From: a virus
Direction: 5' to 3' (one strand)
Length of the DNA: 51,459 nucleotides
IMG/VR virus record: IMGVR_UViG_3300034101_005634
Location: 1-51,459 of that record
Below, piece by piece: positions 14,863 through 49,323 of this stretch. Both the position numbers and the translations under genes were made by a program. Every line of letters begins with the position of its first letter. Within the stretch, counting starts at the first letter, position 1. A model generated the notes under the pieces. The model made no database searches, had not been told where the DNA came from, and saw only the letters and a list, made by a program, of their open reading frames with translations.

Positions 14863-17289
14863 TTACTCTATAACAAGGCCGTTGTCAATAACTTTTATTG
14901 AAACTTTTTTCAAATTAGCATTTTTAATAATAAATCTAGCAATTGGTACTTGTAGTTCCGAGCGAACTAAATCTTTAATATCTCTAGCATGGAGATTTTT
15001 GCTTTTAAATTTATTAAAAATAAAATTATCCACTCCTTTATTAAATACTAATTTAAAATTCTTATTGTTTAACTTTTCTTTGATTTTGTCAATTTCAAGA
15101 TGCACAATTGATACAAGCTGCTGATCTTTTAAATCATCAAATATTAATAACTCATTAATTCTAGAAATCAACTCTGGTTTTAGATGTTTTTTGACGGATT
15201 CTGTATAGGAATCATTATTATTTATTTCTTCTTGAATGAACCCAAGTGTTTTCTTTTTGGCTTCTTGATGTCCTATATTACTTGTCATCACGACAATAGA
15301 TTTAGTGAAATCAATTTTTCTATTAAGATTGTCATTAACATATCCCTCGTCCAATAAATGCAATAAAAGATTAAGTATTTGTGGATCACATTTTTCTATT
15401 TCGTCAAATAAGACTACGCAGTTAGGATTATTTCTAACGAATTCTGTTAAAAGTCCACCTTCTTCATATCCAATATAACCAGCATTAGCACCAATCAATT
15501 TACTAATACCCGTCTTCTCTTGGTATTCGCTCATATTGATTTGAATAAAGGCTTTCTTGTTGCCAAAGTAATGCTCTGCAATCTTCTTTGCTGTATAGGT
15601 TTTGCCAACGCTAGTTGCACCGACAAAGAATAAATTACACAGGGGTTTTTTGTCGTCATTCAAACCAATTTTAGCACACGCGAGTATATCAGAAATTTTA
15701 TCAATGTTCTTATCTTGACCAAAAATATCTTTTTTCATTTTTTGGTCAAAGTTAATAAATTCATCTGTTTCTGGACAGATCGATGATACTGGTAAATTTA
15801 TTTTGGAAGCAACTACCTCTAGAACATCTTTTTGTTTGATTTTAAATTTATTTTTCAGTACACTTTTATTAAAAAGGCTGATTTTATCTATGTATTCTTT
15901 TAATAAGGTTTCATAAAAAAGCTCTTCTTCTTTGTTTGATAAAATATAATCATCTGATAATTTAGATGAAATTTCATCTTGAATTTTTTGAATATCTGGA
16001 GGTAGTTTTAATTTTTTAACTTTAACTTTTGCTCCAACTTGATCAATAATATCAAAAGCCTTATCTGGAAATTTTTTATCTAAAATGTATTTATCGCACA
16101 AATCCACAATAAGATCTATGGTTTCTTGTTCGTACTTTACAAAATGAAAGTTTTCATAAAACTTAATAGAATTTTGAATGATTTTATTTGTCTGTTCTTT
16201 GTCTGGTTCATCAATTATAATTGAATCAAATCTCCTCTTCATTGCGGAGTCTTTTTCAAAGAATTTTTTATATTCACTTGTAGTTGTAGCTCCAATGCAT
16301 TTAATGGACCCTCTTGCGAGTTCTGGTTTAAGCATATTTGCTGCATCCAGAGATCCTTCTGCGCTTCCAGTGCCAATGATTGTGTGGATTTCATCAAAAA
16401 ATAAAATAATATTTTTAAATTCAGATGCAGCCTTAATAAGAGATTTAAATTTTTCTTCAAATTCCCCTCTGTATCTTGTGCCAGCAACCATTGATGCAAT
16501 ATCTACACAATGGATCTCAAAGCCAGATAGATTAGTTGGAACTTTATTTTGAACTATTCTTTGGGCAAGACCTTCTACAATAGCTGTTTTACCAACCCCA
16601 GCATCTCCAACTAAAATAGCATTGCTTTTTGTTTTTTTAGATATAGTTTCAATTAATTCATCTATCTCCTTATCTCTTCCAGAGATTGGGCTAATTGAAT
16701 TATTAATTACTTGATCATTTAAACATATACAATATTTTTGTAATGGTTCGTATTTTTTAGCTAATGATTTAGTATCTGAAATTGGTGTTTCGCTTGTATT
16801 AGTATCTGATATTGATTGTCCAGAATTATTGTCGATGATTAATGACTCAATCATTGATTTGAGTTTTTCTGTATCTACTCCAGATTTAAATAGATACTCA
16901 GAAAAGAATAAAGAGCATTCTAATATCGAGTATATAATGTGTTCTGAGCCAATATAATAATTATCATATATCTCTGAAAAAGATTTCGCTGCGACCATTA
17001 CATCATTGACTTCTTGATGCCAACTACCGCTATTTTTATTGGCTTTGAAAAAATTAGGTTTTTCCTTTTGGAGTTTTGTGAAAATTTCAATATAACTATC
17101 AATTGATAAGTTAATATCGTTGTTTTTTACGTTCCTCCAAAAAGAATCCGCAGCATTTGCTAAACACCCATAAAAAACATGAGCGTTGTTGATTAGAGTG
17201 TGCTCATTATCGCTGGCAAATTGTTTTGCAAGTTTGTATGCTTTTTTTGCTCTTGGAGTTAGATTAAAATCGTTAATTCCCATCATCAT
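14863..17289 (-). CDS. ClpC/ClpA-like AAA+ protein unfoldase
   Basis: An 808-residue double-ring AAA+ protein. The N-terminal Clp-N repeat domain spans about 1-150 (LTPRAKKAYKLAKQFASD, SEHIIYSILE). D1 has Walker A GDAGVGKT (228-235) and Walker B ILFFDEIHTIIG. A short ClpC-like middle region follows DIIDQVGAKVKVKKLKLPPD. D2 has Walker A GATSVGKT (557-564), Walker B VVLFDEIEKC and sensor 1 MTSNIG. After sensor 1 comes L682-G683-F684, at the place of the IGF/IGL loop that docks ClpP in ClpA, ClpC and ClpX. Sensor 2 is HARDIKD. Length and domains match ClpC (about 810). Three ATGs open the frame. The third (17283) sits 14 nt after a GTGTAA element and may be the real start. No ClpP gene is in the window, so host ClpP is the likely partner. 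Confidence 0.9.
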   Translation of the reverse strand: MMMGINDFNLTPRAKKAYKLAKQFASDNEHTLINNAHVFYGCLANAADSFWRNVKNNDINLSIDSYIEIFTKLQKEKPNFFKANKNSGSWHQEVNDVMVAAKSFSEIYDNYYIGSEHIIYSILECSLFFSEYLFKSGVDTEKLKSMIESLIIDNNSGQSISDTNTSETPISDTKSLAKKYEPLQKYCICLNDQVINNSISPISGRDKEIDELIETISKKTKSNAILVGDAGVGKTAIVEGLAQRIVQNKVPTNLSGFEIHCVDIASMVAGTRYRGEFEEKFKSLIKAASEFKNIILFFDEIHTIIGTGSAEGSLDAANMLKPELARGSIKCIGATTTSEYKKFFEKDSAMKRRFDSIIIDEPDKEQTNKIIQNSIKFYENFHFVKYEQETIDLIVDLCDKYILDKKFPDKAFDIIDQVGAKVKVKKLKLPPDIQKIQDEISSKLSDDYILSNKEEELFYETLLKEYIDKISLFNKSVLKNKFKIKQKDVLEVVASKINLPVSSICPETDEFINFDQKMKKDIFGQDKNIDKISDILACAKIGLNDDKKPLCNLFFVGATSVGKTYTAKKIAEHYFGNKKAFIQINMSEYQEKTGISKLIGANAGYIGYEEGGLLTEFVRNNPNCVVLFDEIEKCDPQILNLLLHLLDEGYVNDNLNRKIDFTKSIVVMTSNIGHQEAKKKTLGFIQEEINNNDSYTESVKKHLKPELISRINELLIFDDLKDQQLVSIVHLEIDKIKEKLNNKNFKLVFNKGVDNFIFNKFKSKNLHARDIKDLVRSELQVPIARFIIKNANLKKVSIKVIDNGLVIE

Positions 17290-17297: not shown

Positions 17298-19859
17298 TTA
17301 TTTTAGTTCAGAAAGTTTCATATAAATCTTATCGTTTAGTATATTAATTTTATCAATAAAAACGATGTCATCTCCCTTCGATCCTTCGATGATAATTATA
17401 TCATCTTTTGATGGAAGCTTTTTACCAGAGTTTAAATACTCAGTCAATCTTTCTTTTTGCGATCCATCCATAAATAATCCACATACAGCGCCTAAATCAT
17501 CTTGTAGTTCTAGTCTGGCGTATTTATTTCCATTAGAGCTAGTTCTTTTTATAATATCTGTGAGTATGCCAACAAATTGAATATTTGAGCGTTGCTCAGA
17601 ATGTCTAACTTCCTTGGAAGAAATTAGTGATTTAATCTCATTGTTTTTAAATATTTCTCTAATGTTGTAAGAATAACTATATCCCAAAAGTTCTTTTTCA
17701 AAGAACCAATTTGCATATTTAATATGTTTTCTATTTATTTCGTATATTTTTTTGTAAGGTTCATACTTTTTCTTAAATGTATTAAATCTCTTTTCGCTAA
17801 AGAGGACTTTATTATCGTCTCCTAGTTTTTTATTTTTAAATACATCATGAATACAATTTAAAACATCAAAGTCGTATTGATTTCCAATCTCCAAAACATT
17901 TCTCTTCTCTCTGTCTGTCAGGATATTAAATGCCTGAGCCTCTAAGACTAGACGACATCTATCCTTCGTGACAAATGAATCTAAAAGACCCGCTTGAATT
18001 AAACCAGAAAGACATCCTATATTAACTCCAGATTGCTTGGCTGAGATAAATACTTCATACTTATTGCGGAAGCATCCTTCTCTAAACTCAAGTAGTGACT
18101 CTAAAACTTTATCTGATACTCCTTTAATACAATTTAATCCATATCGAATGTTTTTATCTTCTATTTTAAAATCAATATCTGACTTGTTAAGATCTGGTGG
18201 CAATAATTTTATGTCAAACAAAGATAATTCTTGAGAAATTTTGTGAATTTCTTCATGAGCATTTGGTTCAAATCTAGCAAATTTTAATAAACTTAAAAAG
18301 AATTCTTGTGGATAATTAAATTTTAAATAAACTGTAATTGACGCTAAATAGGCGTAACTAATTGAGTGAGACTTATTGAATGAATAATTGGCTGAATCTT
18401 CTGCAACTTTCCATAAAACTTCACTAATCACTGGATCAAGATTATTAATTGACACCTTTTCTTGGATTTTGTCTTTCCAAGCAGCCATTTGATCCACCTT
18501 CTTCTTGCCTACGATTCTTCTTAATTGCTCTGACTCATCTAAACTGAATCCTACTTTTACAGCCATTTTCATCAACTGCTCTTGATAAAGAGGAATTCCA
18601 CCAGTATAACTCAAAATGTCATCAAAGAATGGGTGTACAGATTGGAAGTCTCCTGTCCTAACATACTCAGCATATCTGTCTTTGAAGTCTAATGCTCCAG
18701 GTCTAGCTATCGCAACCACAGCAGAAAGCTGTTCTAGGTTTTTTGGAGCTATCTGCTTACATACTTTAAAGTTTGTATCTGCTTCGATTTGAAATAATCC
18801 CTGTGGAGCTTCAAGGCACGCTAGTGCAGCATAGATGGATTCATGTTGGCAGTCAATATCTGCCACATTGATTCCGATGCGCTTACAGATGTCATTGACG
18901 ACAGAGAGTGTTCTGAGGCCCAAGATATCGAATTTAACGCTCAAGCTCGCTACGTCATTCATATCATAACCAGAAACAAGTGCTCCGTCATTTGTGAGCT
19001 GTAGAGGCATGATATCTTCAAGGCCGTAATAACTAATACATATACCAGATGGATGAACTCCTGTGTTTTTATTGAGACCTTCTAGTTTTTTAGCCACCCT
19101 AAACGCCCTTTTATATTTATCAGCGTATTTTTTAAATAACTCACTCTCTTCATATGCAACTTTTAATTTTGAAACCTTGCCAAATTTTTTAGGAATGGAG
19201 TCACTGATTTCATTTACCTGTGTCTCCGAAAGCTCTGAAACTATTTTGCCGCACTCTTTAATGCAGAGTTTGCCACTTAATGTATTCAAAGTCAAAATCT
19301 TTGAGGTTCTACCTTTATATTTTTCATTGATATAATTAATGACCTCCATTCGTCTGTCATAACTAATGTCATTGTCAATATCAGCCAATAGACTTCCATC
19401 TAGATATATCTGTCCATTGTGTTCTATTTTTTTGGCTCGACTCTTGGAAACAAATCTTTCAAAGAAAAGATCGTATTGAATAGGGTCAATGTTAGTTACG
19501 CCAATTACATAAAGAACAAGAGAACCTGCAGCACTTCCGCGCCCAGCACCAGTTGGAATAGATTTTTCTTTGCAGAAATTTAAAATGTCCCAATTTAATA
19601 GAATGTAATCAATAAACCCTAATTCATTAAGAATGTCTAGCTCCTCTTTTAATCTTTCGTAATACTTATTAACATCATGTTTTTTATCAATACCTCTTAG
19701 GATTACCCCTTTATAACAAAGTCTCCTCAAGAAATTGAAATTTGATGAATTAGGATCACAACCAGCATAGTCGTAATACTTTTTATCGATTTTAATTTCT
19801 GGTAATTTTACACCAACTGGGAAAGGTGTTTCATATTTTGAGTAGTTTTCAAATTTCAT
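17298..19859 (-). CDS. dnaE: DNA polymerase III alpha subunit, catalytic part without PHP domain
   Basis: An 853-residue protein covering the palm, thumb, fingers and C-terminal OB parts of DnaE. It starts just after where the PHP domain would end. Motifs seen: IPTGAGRGSAAGSLVLYVIG near 104-123; the catalytic pair D160-I-D162 in LADIDNDISYDRR (PDFDIDF in DnaE); KFDILGLRTLSVV; GGIPLYQEQLMKMAVKVGFS; EDSANYSFNKSHSISYAYLA; and an OB-fold start IQFVGILTDIIKRTSSNG. E. coli DnaE is 1160 residues, and the difference is mainly the missing N-terminal PHP domain, which is a separate gene at 20463-21245. The exonuclease gene lies between, overlapping by 4 bp (ATGA). This is the phage replicase. A clamp-binding motif was not recognised. 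Confidence 0.93.
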   Translation of the reverse strand: MKFENYSKYETPFPVGVKLPEIKIDKKYYDYAGCDPNSSNFNFLRRLCYKGVILRGIDKKHDVNKYYERLKEELDILNELGFIDYILLNWDILNFCKEKSIPTGAGRGSAAGSLVLYVIGVTNIDPIQYDLFFERFVSKSRAKKIEHNGQIYLDGSLLADIDNDISYDRRMEVINYINEKYKGRTSKILTLNTLSGKLCIKECGKIVSELSETQVNEISDSIPKKFGKVSKLKVAYEESELFKKYADKYKRAFRVAKKLEGLNKNTGVHPSGICISYYGLEDIMPLQLTNDGALVSGYDMNDVASLSVKFDILGLRTLSVVNDICKRIGINVADIDCQHESIYAALACLEAPQGLFQIEADTNFKVCKQIAPKNLEQLSAVVAIARPGALDFKDRYAEYVRTGDFQSVHPFFDDILSYTGGIPLYQEQLMKMAVKVGFSLDESEQLRRIVGKKKVDQMAAWKDKIQEKVSINNLDPVISEVLWKVAEDSANYSFNKSHSISYAYLASITVYLKFNYPQEFFLSLLKFARFEPNAHEEIHKISQELSLFDIKLLPPDLNKSDIDFKIEDKNIRYGLNCIKGVSDKVLESLLEFREGCFRNKYEVFISAKQSGVNIGCLSGLIQAGLLDSFVTKDRCRLVLEAQAFNILTDREKRNVLEIGNQYDFDVLNCIHDVFKNKKLGDDNKVLFSEKRFNTFKKKYEPYKKIYEINRKHIKYANWFFEKELLGYSYSYNIREIFKNNEIKSLISSKEVRHSEQRSNIQFVGILTDIIKRTSSNGNKYARLELQDDLGAVCGLFMDGSQKERLTEYLNSGKKLPSKDDIIIIEGSKGDDIVFIDKINILNDKIYMKLSELK

Positions 19860-38407: not shown

Positions 38408-38734
38408 ATGAATACATTATTTAATGAATTATTTGGATCAACGGATTTTTGCTCCAGGGGTAATTTAAAAAACGCCCATATTAAAGATTCTGGAGACGTA
38501 TATCTGGTTGATTTTGAACTAGCTGGATATGATAAATCTGAAATTAAAATTACAGCAACTGATGAGCTTCTTAAAATCAAAGCCAAAAACGAAGAAAGAT
38601 CTAAGGATCTAGCCATTAATCTTAATAATCTTGTTTCTATTAATCATATCAAATCAGAATACAAGAATGGATTACTAAAAATAACACTTCCAAAAAAATC
38701 CATATCTGATAGTCTAGATATAAAAATAAACTAA
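38408..38734 (+). CDS. Hsp20/alpha-crystallin small heat shock protein
   Basis: A 108-residue small heat shock protein. The alpha-crystallin domain reads DVYLVDFELAGYDKSEIKIT, DELLKIKAKN, then SEYKNGLLKITLPKKSISDS, the family's A..KNGvL.i.lPK signature. The N-terminal arm is short (MNTLFNELFGSTDFCSRGN), and the C-terminal I-x-I motif appears as DIKIN. Such genes are common in T4-like cyanophages, where they are thought to hold structural proteins or replication enzymes. It has its own strong promoter and terminator, a separate expression unit. No Shine-Dalgarno sequence is present. Confidence 0.9.
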   Translation: MNTLFNELFGSTDFCSRGNLKNAHIKDSGDVYLVDFELAGYDKSEIKITATDELLKIKAKNEERSKDLAINLNNLVSINHIKSEYKNGLLKITLPKKSISDSLDIKIN

Positions 38735-39355: not shown

Positions 39356-41953
39356 TTATGCTGTTACTGCCCAGCCTTTTAATAGGGCTGTTCCAGTTCT
39401 TAATTGTCTAAATGTTAAACTATTTGCACCTCCCGCAGCCATTTGTCGTGATACTGTGATGCTTACGTTGGGATTAATAGATACAACCTGTGTACGATAG
39501 CGTAAGGTTCCAGAACCGTTTGTCGTTAATGCTAGTGCTGGACCACCTAGAGTTGCTGCTACTTGAAATGTTCCAGCCGCAGCATTGACTACATAATAAA
39601 TTCTATTAGTAACAATACCAGTCGTTGTTACTATAGTTGCAAAAGAAACTTCATCTCCATTACTTAATCCATGACTTGCAAGGTTGACTAAATCACCTGC
39701 ATCGGTAAATGTTACTGCTCTTGTTGATGTAAGAGGGGAACCAGTACCAGTAATTTGCATACCCACAGCAATACCAGTGGTGTTTGCCATTGTTATTGTT
39801 GTGCTTCCAGCTGTTGTAGTTCCTGTAAGAGTTACAGGTGTCGGCGCTCCCCAATTGCTTGTTACTGTTATTGTTTGAGAAGCAGCACCTATTGTATCTA
39901 GATAATTGAATATAGATTCTAATTCTTCTTTTGATAATTTACAACCACTATAACTTATTGAATATTCTGAGCCATTCAATGCTGCTCTTGTAAGGTTTGG
40001 ACAGGTACTAAATATACCATTAAATTTATTAGCGTCTGTACCTGCTCCTGAAATTAATAACGGTACAGTTACAAGAGAAGTGCAACCACTAAACATACCA
40101 GACATATTAGTAACAACCCCTGTATTAAACAACGGTACAGTTGTAAGAGAAGTGCAAGTACTAAACATAAAAGACATACTAGTAACAACCCCTGTATTAA
40201 ACAACGGTACAGTTGTAAGAGAAGTACAAGCATTAAACATATCAGACATATTAGTAACAGCCCCTGTATTAAACAGTGGTACAGTTGTAAGAGAAGTACA
40301 ACTCTGAAACATAAAAGCCATATTTGTAACAGCTGTTGTATTGAATAGTGGTACAGTTGTAAGAGATCTGCAAGCACTAAACATACCACCCATATTAGTA
40401 ACAGCTGCTGTATTGAATAGTGGAACAGTTGTAAGAGAAGTACAACCATTAAACATACCATTTGGTGGAATAAAACCTCCCATAAGAGTAACAGCCCCTG
40501 TATTGAATAGTGGTACAGTTATAAGAGTAGTACAACCACTAAACATACTAACCATATTAGTAACAGCCCCTGTATTGAATAGTGGTACGGTTGTAAGAGA
40601 AGTACAACTCTGAAACATATTACTCATAGTAGTAACAGCCCCTGTATTGAATAGTGGAACACTTTTAAGAGTAGTACAACTACTAAACATACCACTCATA
40701 TTAGTAACAGCTGCTGTATTGAATAGTGGTACAGTTGTAAGAGAAGAGCAACCACTAAACATACTAGCCATATTAGTAACAGCTGCTGTATTGAATAGTG
40801 GTACAGTTGTAAGAGATCTGCAACTCTGAAACATAAAAGACATATTAGTAACAACCCCTGTATTAAACAACGGTACAGTTGTAAGAGAAGTGCAAGTACT
40901 AAACATACTAAACATATTAGTAACAGCTGTTGTATTGAATAGTGGTACGGTTGTAAGAGAAGTACAACTCTGAAACATACTACCCATAGTAGTAACAGCC
41001 CCTGTATTGAATAGTGGAACACTTTTAAGAGTAGTACAACCACTAAACATACTAACCATATTAGTAACAGCCCCTGTATTGAATAGTGGTACGGTTGTAA
41101 GAGAAGTACAACTCTGAAACATATTACTCATATTAGTAACAGCTGCTGTATTGAATAGTGGTACAGTTGTAAGAGAAGCGCAACTCTGAAACATACTAGT
41201 CATATCAGTAACAGCCCCTGTATTAAAAAGCAGTACAGTTGTAAGAGTAGTGCAACCAAAAAACATACTAGTCATATTAGTAATATTAGTAAGATCATTA
41301 AAAGATACATTTTTTAATGAAACTAAATTTGCAAATGAATTAGTTAAGTCAGTTAATAATCCTATATTGACTCCACTGAAACTAACTAAATTTTTACAAA
41401 AAGCCGAAGAAGCGGTTGCATTACCAAGAGTTAAACCTGTTAAACTTGGGCAAGATAAAGCTATTTCTAATATAGGAGAAGAATCGGGAAATGTAGATCC
41501 AGCTTGTGCATACTTTTGGTTAAAGTTTACACTTGTTATATTTTGACCAGCTTGAGGAGTAATGACTACAACTGCCATTTTATAACCATCACTTGTAACG
41601 GTGGCATTTAAATCTGGGTCGGTATAAGAGTATTCATGTTGAGCCTTAACACCAGATGCAACATTTTCTGTTACACCATCACCCCAATCAACTGTATATG
41701 CTCCAGATATTGTAAAAGCGAGAAAGTTAGATTGTTGCGGAAACACTGGCATCAACAAAGCTATTTTTTGCTCTGAAGATATTATAGTCGGCATTGTCAA
41801 CCAATCAGCAGGACGAACCCACGGAGACGGTGTGGCTGGAGTTGCTGCTGCTGTTGGTTGTTTAATTCTAAGTCGATCAAATCTATCCTTTTTAAAAAAA
41901 GAAGACTTACGTGAGACTAACGGTCCAACTTTATTTCCGTAACGAATACTCAT
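39356..41953 (-). CDS. Large fibre/adhesin with about 17 BspA-like (DUF285) repeats
   Basis: An 865-residue protein. The N-terminal part (to about 160) has a PKD-type motif (YTVDWGDGVTENVA, then HEYSYTD). From about residue 200 to 640 it is built of 24-residue repeats with the core MFQSCTSLTTVPLFNTGAVT-NMS, the DUF285/BspA-like leucine-rich type known from surface adhesins of Mycoplasma, Bacteroidetes and protists. The variable places are the two residues between F and C and the triplet after C. One unit has a 6-residue insertion (GGFIPPNGMF). The C-terminus (SQTITVTSNWG, TAGSTTITMANTTGIAVGMQ) is an Ig-like or phage-tail-type module. It likely is a receptor-binding or adhesin fibre. Intragenic recombination could change repeat number. 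Confidence 0.8.
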   Translation of the reverse strand: MSIRYGNKVGPLVSRKSSFFKKDRFDRLRIKQPTAAATPATPSPWVRPADWLTMPTIISSEQKIALLMPVFPQQSNFLAFTISGAYTVDWGDGVTENVASGVKAQHEYSYTDPDLNATVTSDGYKMAVVVITPQAGQNITSVNFNQKYAQAGSTFPDSSPILEIALSCPSLTGLTLGNATASSAFCKNLVSFSGVNIGLLTDLTNSFANLVSLKNVSFNDLTNITNMTSMFFGCTTLTTVLLFNTGAVTDMTSMFQSCASLTTVPLFNTAAVTNMSNMFQSCTSLTTVPLFNTGAVTNMVSMFSGCTTLKSVPLFNTGAVTTMGSMFQSCTSLTTVPLFNTTAVTNMFSMFSTCTSLTTVPLFNTGVVTNMSFMFQSCRSLTTVPLFNTAAVTNMASMFSGCSSLTTVPLFNTAAVTNMSGMFSSCTTLKSVPLFNTGAVTTMSNMFQSCTSLTTVPLFNTGAVTNMVSMFSGCTTLITVPLFNTGAVTLMGGFIPPNGMFNGCTSLTTVPLFNTAAVTNMGGMFSACRSLTTVPLFNTTAVTNMAFMFQSCTSLTTVPLFNTGAVTNMSDMFNACTSLTTVPLFNTGVVTSMSFMFSTCTSLTTVPLFNTGVVTNMSGMFSGCTSLVTVPLLISGAGTDANKFNGIFSTCPNLTRAALNGSEYSISYSGCKLSKEELESIFNYLDTIGAASQTITVTSNWGAPTPVTLTGTTTAGSTTITMANTTGIAVGMQITGTGSPLTSTRAVTFTDAGDLVNLASHGLSNGDEVSFATIVTTTGIVTNRIYYVVNAAAGTFQVAATLGGPALALTTNGSGTLRYRTQVVSINPNVSITVSRQMAAGGANSLTFRQLRTGTALLKGWAVTA
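40052..41290. repeat. 72-bp tandem repeat array in the DUF285 fibre gene
   Basis: About 17 imperfect 72-bp units, each encoding 24 residues on the minus strand with the constant core (ACAGTTGTAAGAGAAG on the plus strand) and variable segments. Variants recur in different combinations (Q-S, S-G, S-T, N-A, N-G or S-A before the Cys), a pattern expected from duplication and gene conversion. Because 72 is a multiple of three, the opposite strand also stays open over long stretches. Confidence 0.85.
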
Positions 41954-42336: not shown

Positions 42337-44274
42337 TTATAAAAAGATTGAAAGACCTATGATTGTATTTGAGTTTTCTACTAAAGAGTCTATTTGAGTT
42401 TGTAATTCACCACTTATTCCAGTTACATAAGTTTGAGTAGCATAAGAGGATAAATCGACTCCAGTAATAAACCCACTAGGATTAGAATTTGCGTAAAATT
42501 GTCCAGTTTGGCTATTTAGTACATAAGATCCTGTCGCACTGTTTAGTGTAGAAATTTGTGTTTGTAAACCTCCACTTATTCCAGTTACTTCTTCATAAGA
42601 AGCAATAGTATCCAAGGTGCTTAAATCACTTGCTCTAGTTGCAATGCCAAATTTAAATTTGTCAGAATGATCAAAACCAATAATTGCGCCAGAATCATTA
42701 ATCCCAGTAAGTCCAGATCCAGTAATGAAGAAAATACCACCATCAACTGCCCCACCAGTTAAGTTAAGCAGCAGATAATTACTCGCAACATTTGTGTTAG
42801 TAGTATTTATTATTGTTTCAAGACCTGTAACATATAAATTATTAATGTATACTTTATCGTGGAAAGTTTTATCTCCAAGGATTGTTTCTCCGCCTGTTGT
42901 ATTTACATATCTAGACTCAGATTCGTCTTTTGTATAGTAGTTACCAGAGAATGATAGATCGACTCCAGTAATATAACCTGAAGGGTTGGTTCTTGGGTAG
43001 TATGAACCAGTTTGATTGTTTAAAGTAGTTATTTGAGTTTGTAAACTACCACTAATTCCTGTTACATAAGTTTGTGTTGTTGCTTCTCCACTTAAAAGAA
43101 TCCCTGTTGAATTAACGGTTGGTCTAGTACCACTAATGTTTAACCCACTTCTAAATAAAGCAGTTCCATTAACATCTAAAGTCGCTGTTGGGGTAATGGT
43201 ATTTACACCTACTCTATTATTAGAAGTATTGACAAATAAATCACCACCATTAACTGTTAAATTATTAGAAAAAGTTTTTGCCCCATTAATGGTTTGATTA
43301 CCAGTATTATAAACTAAATTAGGAGCTTCAACTATTGAAGTAAATCTTCCAGTAGTGCCAGTGAGTGCATAATGCATTCTAGTTGGAGCATATACTTGAA
43401 AAGATTTAGTTAACGCTTCTAAGGTAACACCTAAATCACTTACTTCTATATAATTAACAGCATCGAAATTAGCTATAGCGACATAACTATCTAATTGATT
43501 AGGTTGCCAAAGCGCACCGTCAAAATAAGAATTATTAACTGAAAGTGTTCCACTAATATTTAATGCGGTATCATGTATAGCCCCAGTACCAATAACATTT
43601 AAACCACCACTTATTGTTTGATTACCAGTAGTAAAGACTAAATTATTAATTCCAGTAATATATCCACTTGGATTTGCTCTTGGGTAAAAAGAACCGCTTT
43701 GAGAATTTAAAGTCGTAATTTGCCCTTGAAGGTGGCCGCTGACACCTGTTACATAATTTTGGGTAGCGTATGAAGAAAGATCGACACCAGTTATAAAACC
43801 ACTAGGATTAAAATTTGGATAGAATTCTCCAGTTTGAGAGTTGGTAATAAAATCGCCAGTTTCTGTTTTTAAAACGTAGTCTCCAGTTTCATTATTTAAG
43901 CTATTGATTTGATTTTGTAAATCTCCGCTAATACCAGTTGTATAATCAATTGTTGCGTAATTAGACAAATCAACACCAGTAATGAAACCAGAAGGATTTG
44001 AATTAGGATAGAATTGTCCAGTTTCACCTGGACGCACAATTTCACCAGTAACTAAATTAAAATATTGTCCAGAATTAAGGTGATAATATTGATTACCAGA
44101 ACCACCCTGCAAGCTGCCAAGTAAATTATGATTAATCTCATCGCTTCCGCCACTTATATGAGTTACTGAATGTGTAGGAAAACTTATACCAGCGCCTATA
44201 ATTAAAGTTTCATCAACACCAACATTTATTGTTGTCGATGGCGGTTGAATTACGGATATGGTTATATCACTCAT
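42337..44274 (-). CDS. Tail fibre protein with trimeric-type repeats (paralogue A)
   Basis: A 645-residue fibre. The N-terminus has ISFPTHSVTHISGGSDEINH, and several recurring shaft blocks of the type FYPNSNPSGFITGVDLSSYA-TQNYVTGVSGHLQ follow. Others are TLDVNGTALFRSGLNISGT and a larger domain, NNLYVTGLETIINTTNTNVA to KFGIATRASDLSTLDTIAS, which is shared nearly word for word with the fibre at 47080-49323. The repeated G-I-S-G-x-L-Q-x-Q-I heptad-like helices suggest a trimeric coiled shaft. No chaperone or peptidase S74 domain is seen at the C-terminus. It begins on the stop of the 44271 gene (4-bp overlap). Confidence 0.8.
   Translation of the reverse strand: MSDITISVIQPPSTTINVGVDETLIIGAGISFPTHSVTHISGGSDEINHNLLGSLQGGSGNQYYHLNSGQYFNLVTGEIVRPGETGQFYPNSNPSGFITGVDLSNYATIDYTTGISGDLQNQINSLNNETGDYVLKTETGDFITNSQTGEFYPNFNPSGFITGVDLSSYATQNYVTGVSGHLQGQITTLNSQSGSFYPRANPSGYITGINNLVFTTGNQTISGGLNVIGTGAIHDTALNISGTLSVNNSYFDGALWQPNQLDSYVAIANFDAVNYIEVSDLGVTLEALTKSFQVYAPTRMHYALTGTTGRFTSIVEAPNLVYNTGNQTINGAKTFSNNLTVNGGDLFVNTSNNRVGVNTITPTATLDVNGTALFRSGLNISGTRPTVNSTGILLSGEATTQTYVTGISGSLQTQITTLNNQTGSYYPRTNPSGYITGVDLSFSGNYYTKDESESRYVNTTGGETILGDKTFHDKVYINNLYVTGLETIINTTNTNVASNYLLLNLTGGAVDGGIFFITGSGLTGINDSGAIIGFDHSDKFKFGIATRASDLSTLDTIASYEEVTGISGGLQTQISTLNSATGSYVLNSQTGQFYANSNPSGFITGVDLSSYATQTYVTGISGELQTQIDSLVENSNTIIGLSIFL
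42595..42850 (-). repeat. Fibre domain duplicated at 48385-48640 (copy 1)
   Basis: Encodes NLYVTG-ETI-TNTNV-SNYLLLN-TGGA-DGG-FF-TGSGLTG-NDSGAIIGFD, then KFGI..R..DL..L-TIAS. The same segment with few changes is in the second fibre gene. The constant residues over about 85 positions show recent duplication or recombination. Confidence 0.75.
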
Positions 44275-44603
44275 TTTGTAGAGCTTTTTATAATATAAAC
44301 TGGTCCAGATAACAATTTATCTGGACATTGACCAGACCTATCGGCATATAAATCCCAATAAGATGGTGCTAAATCAAGACCCAATGTTTGTAATGCATCT
44401 AAGCTTATTTTTGCTATGCCGCTTGACTCATTAAGCACTTCAGTTTTAAAAATAGCTTGTAAAGCATCGTCAAAATCTCTACGAATTTGACCAGTAAGAG
44501 ACACACCGCTTAAATTATATATATCTCCGCCTTTTTGTATTGTAAGCGTTAAATCATAACAAGCTCTTTGTTCAATAGTTATTCCAGTATTTGCAGCACT
44601 CAT
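44271..44603 (-). CDS. Baseplate/fibre-partner protein, BppU-like N-terminus
   Basis: I chose ATG 44603 (MSAANTGITIEQRACYDLTL); the longer start at 44606 would be TTG. The 110-residue product has the pattern of small phage proteins that sit beside fibres: EQRACYDLTLTIQKGGDIYN-LSGVSLTGQIRRDFDDALQA and FKTEVLNESSGIAKISLDAL. The Y-D-L/T-G-Q-I-R arrangement recalls BppU-type and other upper-baseplate N-domains. It ends YIIKSSTK. A GTGTAA element begins 15 nt before the ATG. It is 9 bp after the SET gene and overlaps the fibre gene by 4 bp. Confidence 0.6.
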   Translation of the reverse strand: MSAANTGITIEQRACYDLTLTIQKGGDIYNLSGVSLTGQIRRDFDDALQAIFKTEVLNESSGIAKISLDALQTLGLDLAPSYWDLYADRSGQCPDKLLSGPVYIIKSSTK

Positions 44604-44612
44604 CAAAGATTA

Positions 44613-45020
44613 TTACACCCAATCTATCTCTTCTGGAAGATATTTACACGTCAGTTCTTCACCAATTTCAATATTTTTAATGGCATAATACGTATCTGTC
44701 TCTAAATGATGATATAAATTAGGTTCTTCAGAATGATTTACATAATAAGATGGGCTAATTTTATTCACTGGGCAATCTATCCAAAATCCATGTTCATTGT
44801 GATTGCACATTTGTTTAATGTAGCGACTTATATTTTGCTCAATTCCTTCAATCTCAAACCATTGAATAAATTTATTCGTATTCGTGGCGAATACAATATC
44901 TTCTTTTTCAATTTTACTCATTGCAAAAACACCAACTCCAGCATTATTAATTTTACTTGGGGCAAGTTTTACAATAGTCTTATCAAAGAGTTCCTGTAGT
45001 ATTTGATTTCTGAGGTTCAT
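44613..45020 (-). CDS. Viral SET-domain protein (putative lysine methyltransferase)
   Basis: A 135-residue, stand-alone SET domain, about as short as the viral histone methyltransferase vSET of chlorella virus PBCV-1. Residues 28-33 give GVGVFA, followed by I42 at the motif-I strand. Residues 95-101 are N-H-S-E-E-P-N, the defining NHSxxPN of SET motif III. Residues 117-127 are IEIGEELTCKY, motif IV with the catalytic-type Tyr127. The pseudo-knot parts needed for S-adenosylmethionine binding are thus present. Post-SET cysteines are absent. It lies within fibre genes and overlaps the unknown 44983 gene by 38 bp. Its target could be a virion, host ribosomal or other protein lysine. Confidence 0.78.
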   Translation of the reverse strand: MNLRNQILQELFDKTIVKLAPSKINNAGVGVFAMSKIEKEDIVFATNTNKFIQWFEIEGIEQNISRYIKQMCNHNEHGFWIDCPVNKISPSYYVNHSEEPNLYHHLETDTYYAIKNIEIGEELTCKYLPEEIDWV

Positions 45021-45636
45021 TTGTAAATTCTGTCATATAACTATAATCTGTATATTGCGTCCTTTTATTTTCGACGCTATATACAGTTAAATCTATTTTA
45101 TATCCTGGGTTTTTATCAATTGGGACATCCACCCAAGCATCATCATGCCATATAATTCTGTTGTTAGGGTAAGCGTAAAAATTACCATTATCCATTTTAA
45201 ACAGGTGGGCGCATTTATGTTCGGGTGTTTCAGAGAAATTAGTATCTAGAATTGATTTATTTTCCCACCCCCAATCCAAAGTGAACATATATTCACCCCA
45301 TTCTTTTTTGCCAAGTGGATTAATAAGCTTCGCTTTCAATCCCTTGAGTCGCGCTCTTACTTGCACATCAACATATGGGCTAAAACAATCCCAATACATT
45401 GCGTGTTCCAATGGAGCTGGATCGCATTCTTTCCAGCAAAATGCAGTAATTGGTCTGCGCGTCCAGTTGACACCATTGGTTAAAAAAGCCTCAAAAAGCG
45501 GAACTCTTTTTTCGATTGAAGCAACAGAATGAACATCGCATGAAGTATACTCCCCATGTCCTTTCTCATGATTAAAAAGATACTCATTTCTTATTAAACA
45601 AGTAATAGTAGGAATATTGTGATTTAAGTAAGACAT
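44983..45636 (-). CDS. Unknown Cys/Trp/His-rich protein
   Basis: A 217-residue protein I cannot assign. It has a distinctive conserved-looking block GEYTSCDVHSVASIEKRVPL-FEAFLTNGVNWTRRPITAFC, then CFSPYVDVQVRARLKGLKAK and LINPLGKKEWGEYMFTLDWG. The C-terminal part (NRIIWHDDAWVDVPIDKNPG) is followed by KIDLTVYSVENKRTQ. The density of Cys, His, Trp and Asp looks enzymatic, perhaps metal-binding. It lies between the UPF0489-like gene (no gap) and the SET gene (38-bp overlap), so the three are made together. Confidence 0.6.
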   Translation of the reverse strand: MSYLNHNIPTITCLIRNEYLFNHEKGHGEYTSCDVHSVASIEKRVPLFEAFLTNGVNWTRRPITAFCWKECDPAPLEHAMYWDCFSPYVDVQVRARLKGLKAKLINPLGKKEWGEYMFTLDWGWENKSILDTNFSETPEHKCAHLFKMDNGNFYAYPNNRIIWHDDAWVDVPIDKNPGYKIDLTVYSVENKRTQYTDYSYMTEFTNEPQKSNTTGTL

Positions 45637-46467
45637 TTATTTTAAATACTCATTAAGGCTCTTTTTAAGATTGTCCAAAATAAATTGTACATTTTCTTTT
45701 TTTGTATATCCTGAGCTTTCGGATTTACACAAAACAATACCAAGGCATTTTTTTATGTCAAAATTTTGTTTTAAAAACGTCAACACTAAATTTATTTTTT
45801 TTAATATTTCATTTTTTGAAAAAACTAATTCATCAAAATTAATATCAAACGCTTCATTAAAAAAATCTATTTTTTCCAATCTATTTAAATGACACATAAA
45901 AGATAAAAAATCTTTTTCGTCTTTAATTTTTGAAAAGTCAATTAACATTTTTTCAAAATCATTGCTTGGAAAGCTTTTTTTTAATTGATCAAGCTCGTTT
46001 TTAAATGGATTTGAGCAACTAAAATAATCACAATCAATAGATAAAAACCATTTTTCATCATTAATTTTAAATTTATTTAATTTCTCTTCAGAAACAACTT
46101 GAAAAGAAAATTTCTTGCTATTTATTGGTGCATTTTTGCCATACACTCCATTTAAATAACAAAGTTTATGGTTCAAATCAAATACTAATGTATTATTTTT
46201 ATCTAACCATAAACTAGATTTATAAAAACCGTCTTCAAATTCATTTAAATTTTTATTATTTTTGATCCATAGATATTTTTTTAAAAAACCCCCATAAACT
46301 AAATAAGTAATAAAAGAACCAATAGTTGGCTCCTTCCCTAATTCGTAAACCCCCAAATCACTATGTGAATCTACATTCACAAAAATAAAATCATTTTTGC
46401 TTTTTTTTGACGCTTCTTTAATTAAATCAACAATTTCATTATGCTCTTCTATAACTTCTATTTTCAT
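45637..46467 (-). CDS. UPF0489/arginase-like metallohydrolase
   Basis: A 276-residue protein with the UPF0489 layout. An E-E-H-N-E start (residues 7-11) is followed by FIFVNVDSHSDLGVYELGKE with D33-x-H35-x-D37. Then come YLVYGGFLKKYLWIKNN and the second metal motif in WFLSIDCDYFSCSNPF, with D145 and D147. These are the ureohydrolase-type metal ligands (H, DxHxD, DxD). UPF0489 includes the peptide arginases that turn arginine to ornithine in some ribosomal peptides, so action on a protein arginine is possible (family knowledge, then inference). The C-terminal half is helical and lysine-rich. It is the first gene of the three-gene island with 44983 and the SET gene. Confidence 0.68.
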   Translation of the reverse strand: MKIEVIEEHNEIVDLIKEASKKSKNDFIFVNVDSHSDLGVYELGKEPTIGSFITYLVYGGFLKKYLWIKNNKNLNEFEDGFYKSSLWLDKNNTLVFDLNHKLCYLNGVYGKNAPINSKKFSFQVVSEEKLNKFKINDEKWFLSIDCDYFSCSNPFKNELDQLKKSFPSNDFEKMLIDFSKIKDEKDFLSFMCHLNRLEKIDFFNEAFDINFDELVFSKNEILKKINLVLTFLKQNFDIKKCLGIVLCKSESSGYTKKENVQFILDNLKKSLNEYLK

Positions 46468-47079: not shown

Positions 47080-49323
47080 TTATCCAATTATAATATAAAG
47101 AGTGGTTGGATTTGGTGTTAATGAATTATACTGACTCTGAGTTAATCTCGTGATTGATGCGACCCCTCCAGAATTTACAACAAATCCCGAAGGATTAGAA
47201 TTAGCGTAAAATTGACCAGTTTGACCTGTTAACACATAATCGCCAGTAGCATTATTAAGATTTGTGATTTGTGTTTGTAATTCACCGCTTATTCCAGTTG
47301 CATAGCCTTGTGTTACCGCCTCTCCGCTTAAAAGGACTCCAGTTGTGTTAACTGTTGGACGAGATTTGAAATTTGTTAGACCAGATATATTTATAGAGCC
47401 ACTAAAAGCATCTATATAAATATTATCATCACTTACTGATATGTTATTAGTATAATAACCTCCCATGCCAACAACTCCACCTGAAGGAGCTATCCAAGAT
47501 TGACCATCAAAATAAGAATTATTAACTGAAAGAGTTCCGCTGATATTTAAATCATTAGCGAATGTTTTTACTCCACTTATAGTTTGATTGCCAGTAGTAG
47601 CAACACCATTTATTCTCGTAACATCAATTGGATCTAATTCACTATGGTAAAAATTACCAGCAATACGCTGCGGTTTCCAAACTACACCATCAGAAGAAAT
47701 AAAAATTAAACTTGTCCCCAAAGGTAATGAACTACCACTAAATGTATATAAAGTCTGTTCTAGATTAGGATCATAAGAATTTCCTGTCCAAACGCGCTGT
47801 TTTATAGCAATAGGTCTGGTAAGTGAACTAATATTAATCCTTAATAAGCCACCATTACGTACTAAAGAATCGCTACCATAACCTCCAGTTGGTAAGAATA
47901 CTACACCAGTTCCAGAAGTCATATAACTTGTAATTCCTAAATTTATATTGTAACCAGTTTGAACATATCCAGTTGCATTTGTATTATCAAGGAATATATT
48001 ACTATTAATGGTTGAATCGAAAATTGTATTATTATTTTTATCGTATAAAATACCTGAAATTGTTTTATTTCCTTGGACTGTCTGATTACCAGTAAGCATA
48101 ACAGCTGTAGTATCTAAGGCTATTTCACCACTCTTAGATGGGAAAGCGTAGGAATAAGAATCTGGGTTTTCGCTACCACCATAAATCTTGGTAATTTTTC
48201 CATATTGATATTGTGTGGTATTTGGACTTGAATAATTCGTCTCATCAGCGCTAATAAAAGAAAAATTAGCATAACCCAAACTCGACCTTCTTACTAATGT
48301 GTTTGGTAAACTATAATCAGTAGACGCTATATCAAAAACAAAACCACTTAATCCACTAATTGAATCGTTTACAAATTTTGTTGAGGCGATTGTTTCTAAA
48401 TTATTAAGATCTTGAGATCTACTTCCAATACCAAATTTAAAATTCTCAAAATCATCAAAACCAATAATAGCGCCAGAATCATTTACGCCTGTTAATCCAG
48501 ATCCAGTAACAAAGAAAACGCCACCATCTGTAGCGCCACCAGTTACATTTAATAATAAATAATTACTAGAAACATTTGTATTTGTGCTACTTACAATTGT
48601 TTCCGAGCCAGTAACATAAAGATTCCTAATATAAACATCTTCTTCAAATTTTTTATAACCACTAATGACTTGATCACCAGTAGTATAAACTATATTTGAT
48701 TTTATTTTTTCTAAATCTGCAACTGGGTTTAAAAATATACCATAAGATTTTGTTCCAGTAGCGCTTTGTGGGTAGGTTTCAAGAAATATTGGAGTTGTTT
48801 CTGTTGGATTTGTTGGCGAGCTAGTTAACCAATCAACGTTTTCATAATTAACTGTATAAGAATTACCACTTGACTGTCTTAATATCCATGATATTTTTTT
48901 GAATCCAGTTTCTGGTGATCCAGTTGGAAAACCTAAATCTAAAAACACATGATTTTGCAATGTTAAATCTTTTACTAAAACTAAATTTTTATTAGAATAA
49001 TCTCTATTAACAACGTCATCAATATTAACTGGAGTTTTAAGTGATTTTAATTCTAAAAATGATTTTACTCCACTTATGGTTTGATCTCCAGTATTATAAA
49101 CAATATTGCTTCCATATAAATCTCCAGATGCTTTTATGTATCCAGAAGCTAATATATCACCAGCGACATTTAATTTTGCAGAAGGATCTAAAGTACCTAT
49201 GCCCACATTATTTGTATCATTATCAACAAATAATGTATCGCTGTGTACTAAAAAAGATTCAGTTACAGATAGGTTTCCTGTAATTGTTACATCATTATAA
49301 ATTGTAAGTGGTCCTGTTGCCAT
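47080..49323 (-). CDS. Tail fibre protein with trimeric-type repeats (paralogue B)
   Basis: A 747-residue fibre. It starts MATGPLTIYNDVTITGNLSV, then VDNDTNNVGIGTLDPSAKLN-VAGD, the head-shaft block of many fibres that end in S74 chaperones. Repeats of YNTGDQTISGVKSF and NISGTLSVNNSYFDG follow. The domain NLYVTGSETIVSSTNTNVSS is shared with the 42337-44274 fibre. The C-terminal GISGELQTQITNLNNATGDY-like heptads and TLYIIIG close it. No S74 catalytic motif is recognised. It is 4 bp after the YadA-like gene. The two paralogues could exchange segments. Confidence 0.8.
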   Translation of the reverse strand: MATGPLTIYNDVTITGNLSVTESFLVHSDTLFVDNDTNNVGIGTLDPSAKLNVAGDILASGYIKASGDLYGSNIVYNTGDQTISGVKSFLELKSLKTPVNIDDVVNRDYSNKNLVLVKDLTLQNHVFLDLGFPTGSPETGFKKISWILRQSSGNSYTVNYENVDWLTSSPTNPTETTPIFLETYPQSATGTKSYGIFLNPVADLEKIKSNIVYTTGDQVISGYKKFEEDVYIRNLYVTGSETIVSSTNTNVSSNYLLLNVTGGATDGGVFFVTGSGLTGVNDSGAIIGFDDFENFKFGIGSRSQDLNNLETIASTKFVNDSISGLSGFVFDIASTDYSLPNTLVRRSSLGYANFSFISADETNYSSPNTTQYQYGKITKIYGGSENPDSYSYAFPSKSGEIALDTTAVMLTGNQTVQGNKTISGILYDKNNNTIFDSTINSNIFLDNTNATGYVQTGYNINLGITSYMTSGTGVVFLPTGGYGSDSLVRNGGLLRINISSLTRPIAIKQRVWTGNSYDPNLEQTLYTFSGSSLPLGTSLIFISSDGVVWKPQRIAGNFYHSELDPIDVTRINGVATTGNQTISGVKTFANDLNISGTLSVNNSYFDGQSWIAPSGGVVGMGGYYTNNISVSDDNIYIDAFSGSINISGLTNFKSRPTVNTTGVLLSGEAVTQGYATGISGELQTQITNLNNATGDYVLTGQTGQFYANSNPSGFVVNSGGVASITRLTQSQYNSLTPNPTTLYIIIG
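48385..48640 (-). repeat. Fibre domain duplicated at 42595-42850 (copy 2)
   Basis: Counterpart of the segment at 42595-42850, encoding NLYVTGSETIVSSTNTNVSS to DLNNLETIAS. The conserved positions (GGVFFVTGSGLTGVNDSGAI) are nearly identical to copy 1. Confidence 0.75.

Follow-up and report, generated by a model that had tools for sequence, protein, structure and literature searches.

SET-domain enzymes have been studied mostly as chromatin enzymes of eukaryotes. Among described proteins, the closest in size and shape to the one reported here is vSET, the A612L product of Paramecium bursaria chlorella virus 1 (PDB 3kma/1n3j), which methylates histone H3K27. SET enzymes of intracellular bacteria or of the chlorella virus act on host proteins. 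To our knowledge, no SET enzyme from a phage of bacteria has been characterized, and a search of the open literature found no paper on SET domains in such phages. The DNA analyzed here (hereafter, the window), a virus record of 51,459 bases, comes from an aquatic bacterial virus and contains a gene for a small SET protein. Like this phage protein, vSET is a stand-alone viral domain of similar size without the pre- and post-SET zinc clusters, and the NHS..PN and catalytic tyrosine motifs of the two proteins align, whereas vSET belongs to a virus of a eukaryote and the phage protein to a virus of bacteria. The phage protein is further set apart from vSET by a C-terminal E-x-D-W tail and by its tie to a neighboring protein of 217 aa, called P217 here. 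The genes surrounding the SET gene in the window are as follows.

42337–44274, minus strand: fiber-like protein of 645 aa with a BppL_N domain (Pfam)
44271–44606, minus strand: gene of 111 aa, a phrog_1084 relative, weakly like L-shaped tail fiber assembly proteins
44613–45020, minus strand: SET-domain protein of 135 aa, candidate SAM-dependent protein-lysine N-methyltransferase
44983–45020, minus strand: 38-bp overlap of the 3' end of the P217 gene with the 5' end of the SET gene
44983–45636, minus strand: P217, 217 aa, phrog_3704, constant partner of the SET gene
45637–46467, minus strand: arginase-fold candidate of 276 aa, UPF0489, a relative of peptide arginases
47080–49323, minus strand: fiber-like protein of 747 aa with BppL_N and Phage_tail_C domains (Pfam)

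The genome as a whole is siphovirus-like, with a lambda J-like tail protein, and has no close cultured relative. It also encodes an AAA+ Clp-type ATPase and a bacterial-type DNA polymerase III alpha (noted at 14863–17289 and 17298–19859), a small heat-shock protein (Hsp20; 38408–38734), and an 865-aa fiber-like protein of DUF285 repeats (39356–41953).

The SET ORF runs from ATG to TAA on the minus strand (45020–44613); on the plus strand of the same interval, stop codons break up the frame that was read. Pfam identified a single domain in this ORF, SET (PF00856; E = 7e-11, 42.9 bits vs. a gathering score of 22.4), and the match spans positions 1–104 of the 105 in the profile. An earlier note, made from the letters of the window alone, had placed a stand-alone SET domain at 44613–45020 and had recognized the main SET motifs in its 135 residues. 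Both points were confirmed, the coordinates exactly: GVGVFA (residues 28–33), NHSEEPN (95–101), and GEELTCKY (120–127) are all present. When 28 members with identities between 97% and about 34% were aligned, residues S22, G28, V29, G30, N95, H96, S97, P100, N101, E122, and Y127 were invariant, the E-x-D-W tail was conserved, and the post-SET cysteines were absent. The dN/dS of the SET gene, measured outside the overlap with P217, was about 0.06–0.25, which indicates purifying selection.

The family profile of the ORF also matches many solved SET enzymes. The earlier note had proposed structure prediction as a check, with a structure lacking the fold as a refutation, and the outcome did not refute it: the AlphaFold2 model, built with 50 relatives, has the SET fold with a mean pLDDT of 89.6. 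Foldseek returned 337 PDB matches with E < 0.001 for this model, and those displayed were all SET enzymes, with a probability of 1.00. VIA-align gave Z = 11–12.5 against SET chains and, for vSET (3kma), Z = 12.2 with an rmsd of 2.4 Å over 99 of 105 residues at 26% identity, so that the likeness to vSET, which the earlier note had drawn from size, extends to the fold. The superposition of the whole domain on knotted SET structures suggests that the model may contain the SET pseudo-knot. In all testable features, the ORF belongs to the SET family, and it is a real, selected protein rather than a chance reading frame. Homology and the predicted fold suggest that it is a methyltransferase. A degenerate SET fold that serves only as a binding module would be compatible with the absence of post-SET cysteines, and the activity of all members is predicted from sequence; however, the SAM-binding and catalytic positions are invariant in 28 diverse members and dN/dS is low, and we consider this explanation very improbable.

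The distribution of the SET gene depended on the collection and the query. With the SET protein as the query, relatives were found in 7 of 50,697 phage records, all of them Synechococcus phages, and on 6 contigs in IMG/VR, whereas with the SET profile, 292 stretches in IMG/VR were found to encode relatives. The rarity of SET proteins in phages that the earlier note had claimed therefore holds among the phage records but not in IMG/VR. The SETs of the Synechococcus phages Sf-CH1b (SfCH1b_81), S-B05, S-B43, RN05-S, RB11-B, and SynMITS9220M01 are 36–39% identical to that of the window and adjoin P217, and those of Sf-CH1b and SynMITS9220M01 fall inside the phage clade of the SET tree. They are annotated as “SET domain-containing,” “methyltransferase,” or hypothetical, and GenBank record PV340850 already names a SET domain. 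Small SETs of Patescibacteria, Nanoarchaeota, and other bacteria and archaea (L168–L183) have the same length and core motifs and are 27–33% identical to the window's protein, but they have no P217 beside them and lie outside the phage clade (support 84/83).

We collected viral SETs by fetching 80 loci found with the profile and then scanning twice for divergent SETs, which gave 92 distinct sequences. P217 was adjacent in 79 of the 80 fetched loci, the exception being a SET at a contig edge, and likewise in all 13 loci found with the SET protein alone (7 phage records and 6 viral contigs). Among the 92 distinct sequences, 10 had no P217; the other 82 constitute the window's clade, in which, with the divergent searches included, 79 abut P217, two lie one gene away (as in L340), and one is at a contig edge. 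The ten sequences without P217 group in the tree with bacterial and archaeal SETs, although the dividing branch is unsupported, and a single change on the tree parts them and the bacterial SETs from the P217-linked set. Because that branch is unsupported, our claim of linkage is restricted to the 82 SETs of the window's clade. P217 was beside the SET gene in none of 31 bacterial and archaeal loci. One viral contig without P217 (L208, 3001–3845) carries two overlapping tandem SET ORFs of the Patescibacteria-like type.

The converse search, with P217 as the query, gave 24 loci with a neighboring SET gene and not one with SET at another position. All 66 members of a divergent P217 set lacked SET, as do most phages that carry P217. 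On the P217 tree, the presence of SET changes 11 times, at least 6 of these on supported branches. Where the two genes occur together, the order is P217–SET in 41 distinct pairs and SET–P217 in 18, and all 59 overlap or touch, by 0–113 bp as computed with the longest ORFs, a procedure that may overstate the overlaps. Well-supported branches of the SET tree force at least three switches of order, and the adjacency must therefore have been kept or re-made. The distances among the SETs and among their P217 partners are correlated (r = 0.55), and none of 2,000 permutations reached so high a value.

In the window, the two genes overlap by 38 bp and the SET ATG is not closely preceded by a clear ribosome-binding site; because of this, the translation of SET is likely coupled to that of P217. 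The two genes can nevertheless be separated. Between the window (44616–45636) and L003 (5385–6405), dS is 0.08 for SET and 1.05 for P217; the SET genes are nearly identical and the P217 genes have diverged at silent sites, which places a recombination breakpoint between them. The linkage may also stem in part from hitch-hiking on a single mobile segment. L042 (4001–4987) is a relative with the same context but without SET: the 111-aa gene comes straight after P217, a state that represents either natural loss or the condition before gain. In L164–L167, L144, and L268, a further gene comes after the SET–P217 pair; in L268 it matches S-adenosylmethionine decarboxylase, another SAM-using enzyme. 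Phage genes that score above the Pfam cut-off for ATE_C, a domain of arginyl-tRNA-protein transferase, lie directly beside P217 in L340 (2256–2744), where the gene sits between SET and P217, and in L049 (1752–2516).

The earlier note had described the SET gene as lying inside a fiber operon and had suggested a protein of the virion or of the host surface as its substrate. The flanking genes of the window are indeed fiber-like, but the neighbor that overlaps SET is the conserved P217. The outer neighbors of the pair vary among loci and include fiber and baseplate wedge genes, ribonucleotide reductase (nrdA/nrdB; L073 and L075), QueE/thymidylate kinase (L115), RNA ligase (L126), and terminase (L146). 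We therefore rejected the fiber operon as the general functional context: the constant neighbor of the phage SET is P217, not the fiber genes. Even the 111-aa gene is found after SET only in the subclade of the window itself. The Synechococcus phages have the order SET–P217 ahead of their baseplate wedge genes, whereas the window has P217–SET among fibers. Methylation of a fiber, tail, or host surface protein is favored by the fiber-assembly-like gene and fibers that come next in the window and its close relatives, by the place of the Synechococcus pair just before the baseplate wedge, and by the RefSeq label “virion structural protein” on the P217 of S-SCSM1. These neighbors are inconstant, however, and P217 genes that lack a SET partner lie in replication or nucleotide modules; the step from fiber placement to such a substrate was not upheld, and we regard this reading as unlikely. 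The adjacency points to a shared job of SET and P217 rather than to work on tail fibers.

The gene directly upstream of P217, the 276-aa arginase-fold candidate, is found there in this window only and lies outside the conserved pair. It is related to the FlmR/OhkR-family peptide arginases and has the metal-site motifs DSHSD and SIDCD; its match to Pfam UPF0489 is below the cut-off, and that to the peptide arginase model NF052474 (E = 5e-18) scores 65.6 bits, short of the threshold of 350. No relatives of it were found in the phage and viral-contig collections searched. PADLOC returned no match for SET, P217, or this arginase relative, and a role in defense or anti-defense was accordingly set aside.

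P217 belongs to phrog_3704 (E = 3e-50), which in cyanophages and pelagiphages corresponds to T4-GC 171. It is found in phages of Synechococcus, Prochlorococcus, Pelagibacter, Flavobacterium, and Aphanizomenon, in the context of replication, nucleotide, tail, or baseplate genes, and also beside DNA polymerase A or flanked by ribonucleotide reductase genes. Its dN/dS of about 0.003–0.03 indicates very strong conservation. The databases name the family PurM, phosphoribosylaminoimidazole synthetase, or ferredoxin. Identity with PurM (AIR synthase) was rejected because Pfam found no AIRS domain in 53 members. Among individual phages, the P217-family proteins of P-SSM2, P-RSM4, CL131, HTVC008M, and HTVC027P have no AIRS or AIRS_C match in Pfam, and those of P-SSM2 and P-RSM4 have no TIGR00878 match in NCBIfam. 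The RefSeq label ferredoxin was likewise rejected, since for the same 53 members Pfam gave, at E up to 0.1, nothing but sporadic chance matches and none to ferredoxin. In P-SSM2 (L206, 2501–4142), two adjoining genes are both called purM; PSSM2_176 is a true PurM (TIGR00878, 348 bits), whereas PSSM2_175 belongs to the P217 family, has no PurM match, and is unrelated to its neighbor. As judged from sequence, dozens of marine phages carry the “purM” label on phrog_3704 in error, and its probable origin is the true purM next door in P-SSM2. The label has been taken to indicate a purine auxiliary metabolic gene (PMC6293099), and another study counts purM in 8 of 16 cyanophages, a count that may include true purM (PMC3037559).

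The neighbors of P217 include 2OG-Fe(II) oxygenases, ATE_C transferases, and the peptide-arginase relative, yet ribonucleotide reductase, AdoMet decarboxylase, bilin reductase, and many genes of no known kind are found there as well. A general role of P217 as a hub of protein-modifying enzymes was rejected because this neighborhood is too mixed. In Sf-CH1b, the gene annotated as “DNA endonuclease V” (L001, 8959–9504) is a 2OG-Fe(II) oxygenase by Pfam, and another 2OG oxygenase abuts P217 in P-RSM4.

A sequence search of P217 against solved structures gave nothing significant. Its predicted model has a mean pLDDT of 69.8, higher in two barrels, and weakly resembles two SH3/Tudor-like barrels. 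The top PDB matches by Foldseek were the Tudor domains of 53BP1, Spindlin, and SETDB1 (E = 0.05–0.2, probability up to 0.93). In VIA, P217 aligned to the PHF1 Tudor domain with Z = 7.2 over about 54 residues at 2.0 Å, and residues 3–68 aligned to that of SETDB1 with Z = 6.6; such scores lie in a range that the tool describes as common. These matches raise the idea of a writer and a reader, in which a tandem Tudor-like P217 would bind the methyl-lysine set by SET on a host or phage protein. The Tudor domains that head the Foldseek list are those of methyl-lysine readers, and two separate stretches of P217 align to such domains. On the other side, SH3-like barrels are frequent and Tudor crystals over-represented, the model is of limited confidence, and P217 is common in phages without SET. 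In addition, the 53BP1-type cage motif F-D-D-G-Y is, by eye, not kept in P217, which has LFKMDNGNFY and FLTNGVNW instead, although the conserved aromatic residues Y116, F146, F153, and Y156 could form a cage. We consider a reader role for P217 improbable. The fuller proposal, that aquatic phages carry a mobile two-gene methylation switch composed of a SET writer and a tandem Tudor-like reader or carrier, a eukaryote-style pair in bacteria, is in our judgment more doubtful still.

Another possibility is that SET methylates a bacterial protein (e.g., a ribosomal, nucleoid, or photosynthetic protein) for host takeover and that P217 is an unrelated, co-expressed effector. This would agree with the action of the SET enzymes of intracellular bacteria and the chlorella virus on host proteins, and with both genes being optional and mobile, a common trait of takeover genes, but it fails to explain why SET was not found away from P217 within the clade; we hold it to be rather unlikely.

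The reading that we prefer, with a confidence about evenly divided for and against, is that the stand-alone SET methyltransferase is one half of a two-gene cassette and methylates a lysine on P217 or on a target that P217 presents. The overlapping genes would be translated in a coupled way, and the SET protein, by homology and fold, would bind SAM in the pocket formed by GxG and NHS..PN and transfer a methyl group to lysine, Y127 serving as the catalytic tyrosine. Gene linkage suggests that the most likely substrate is P217 itself or else a protein of phage or host that it binds and presents. The comparison of lysines between P217 proteins with and without a SET partner singled out no position after correction for relatedness: K141 is invariant in both groups, and K175 occurs at a frequency of 0.90 with SET and 0.50 without, a difference that is not significant on independent pairs. 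Since P217 works without SET in most phages, methylation would not be needed for its basic role, and SET would be an optional modifier that tunes the action of P217 during infection in some phages.

For the P217 family, these results mean that the widely used “purM” call for an auxiliary metabolic gene in marine phages rests at least partly on a mislabeled family, which affects published claims on phage purine metabolism. The phage SET differs from the known SET enzymes in the domain of life of its host and in having a fixed partner. With one such partner throughout the phage SET clade, the question of the substrate becomes testable with two genes of cultured Synechococcus phages.
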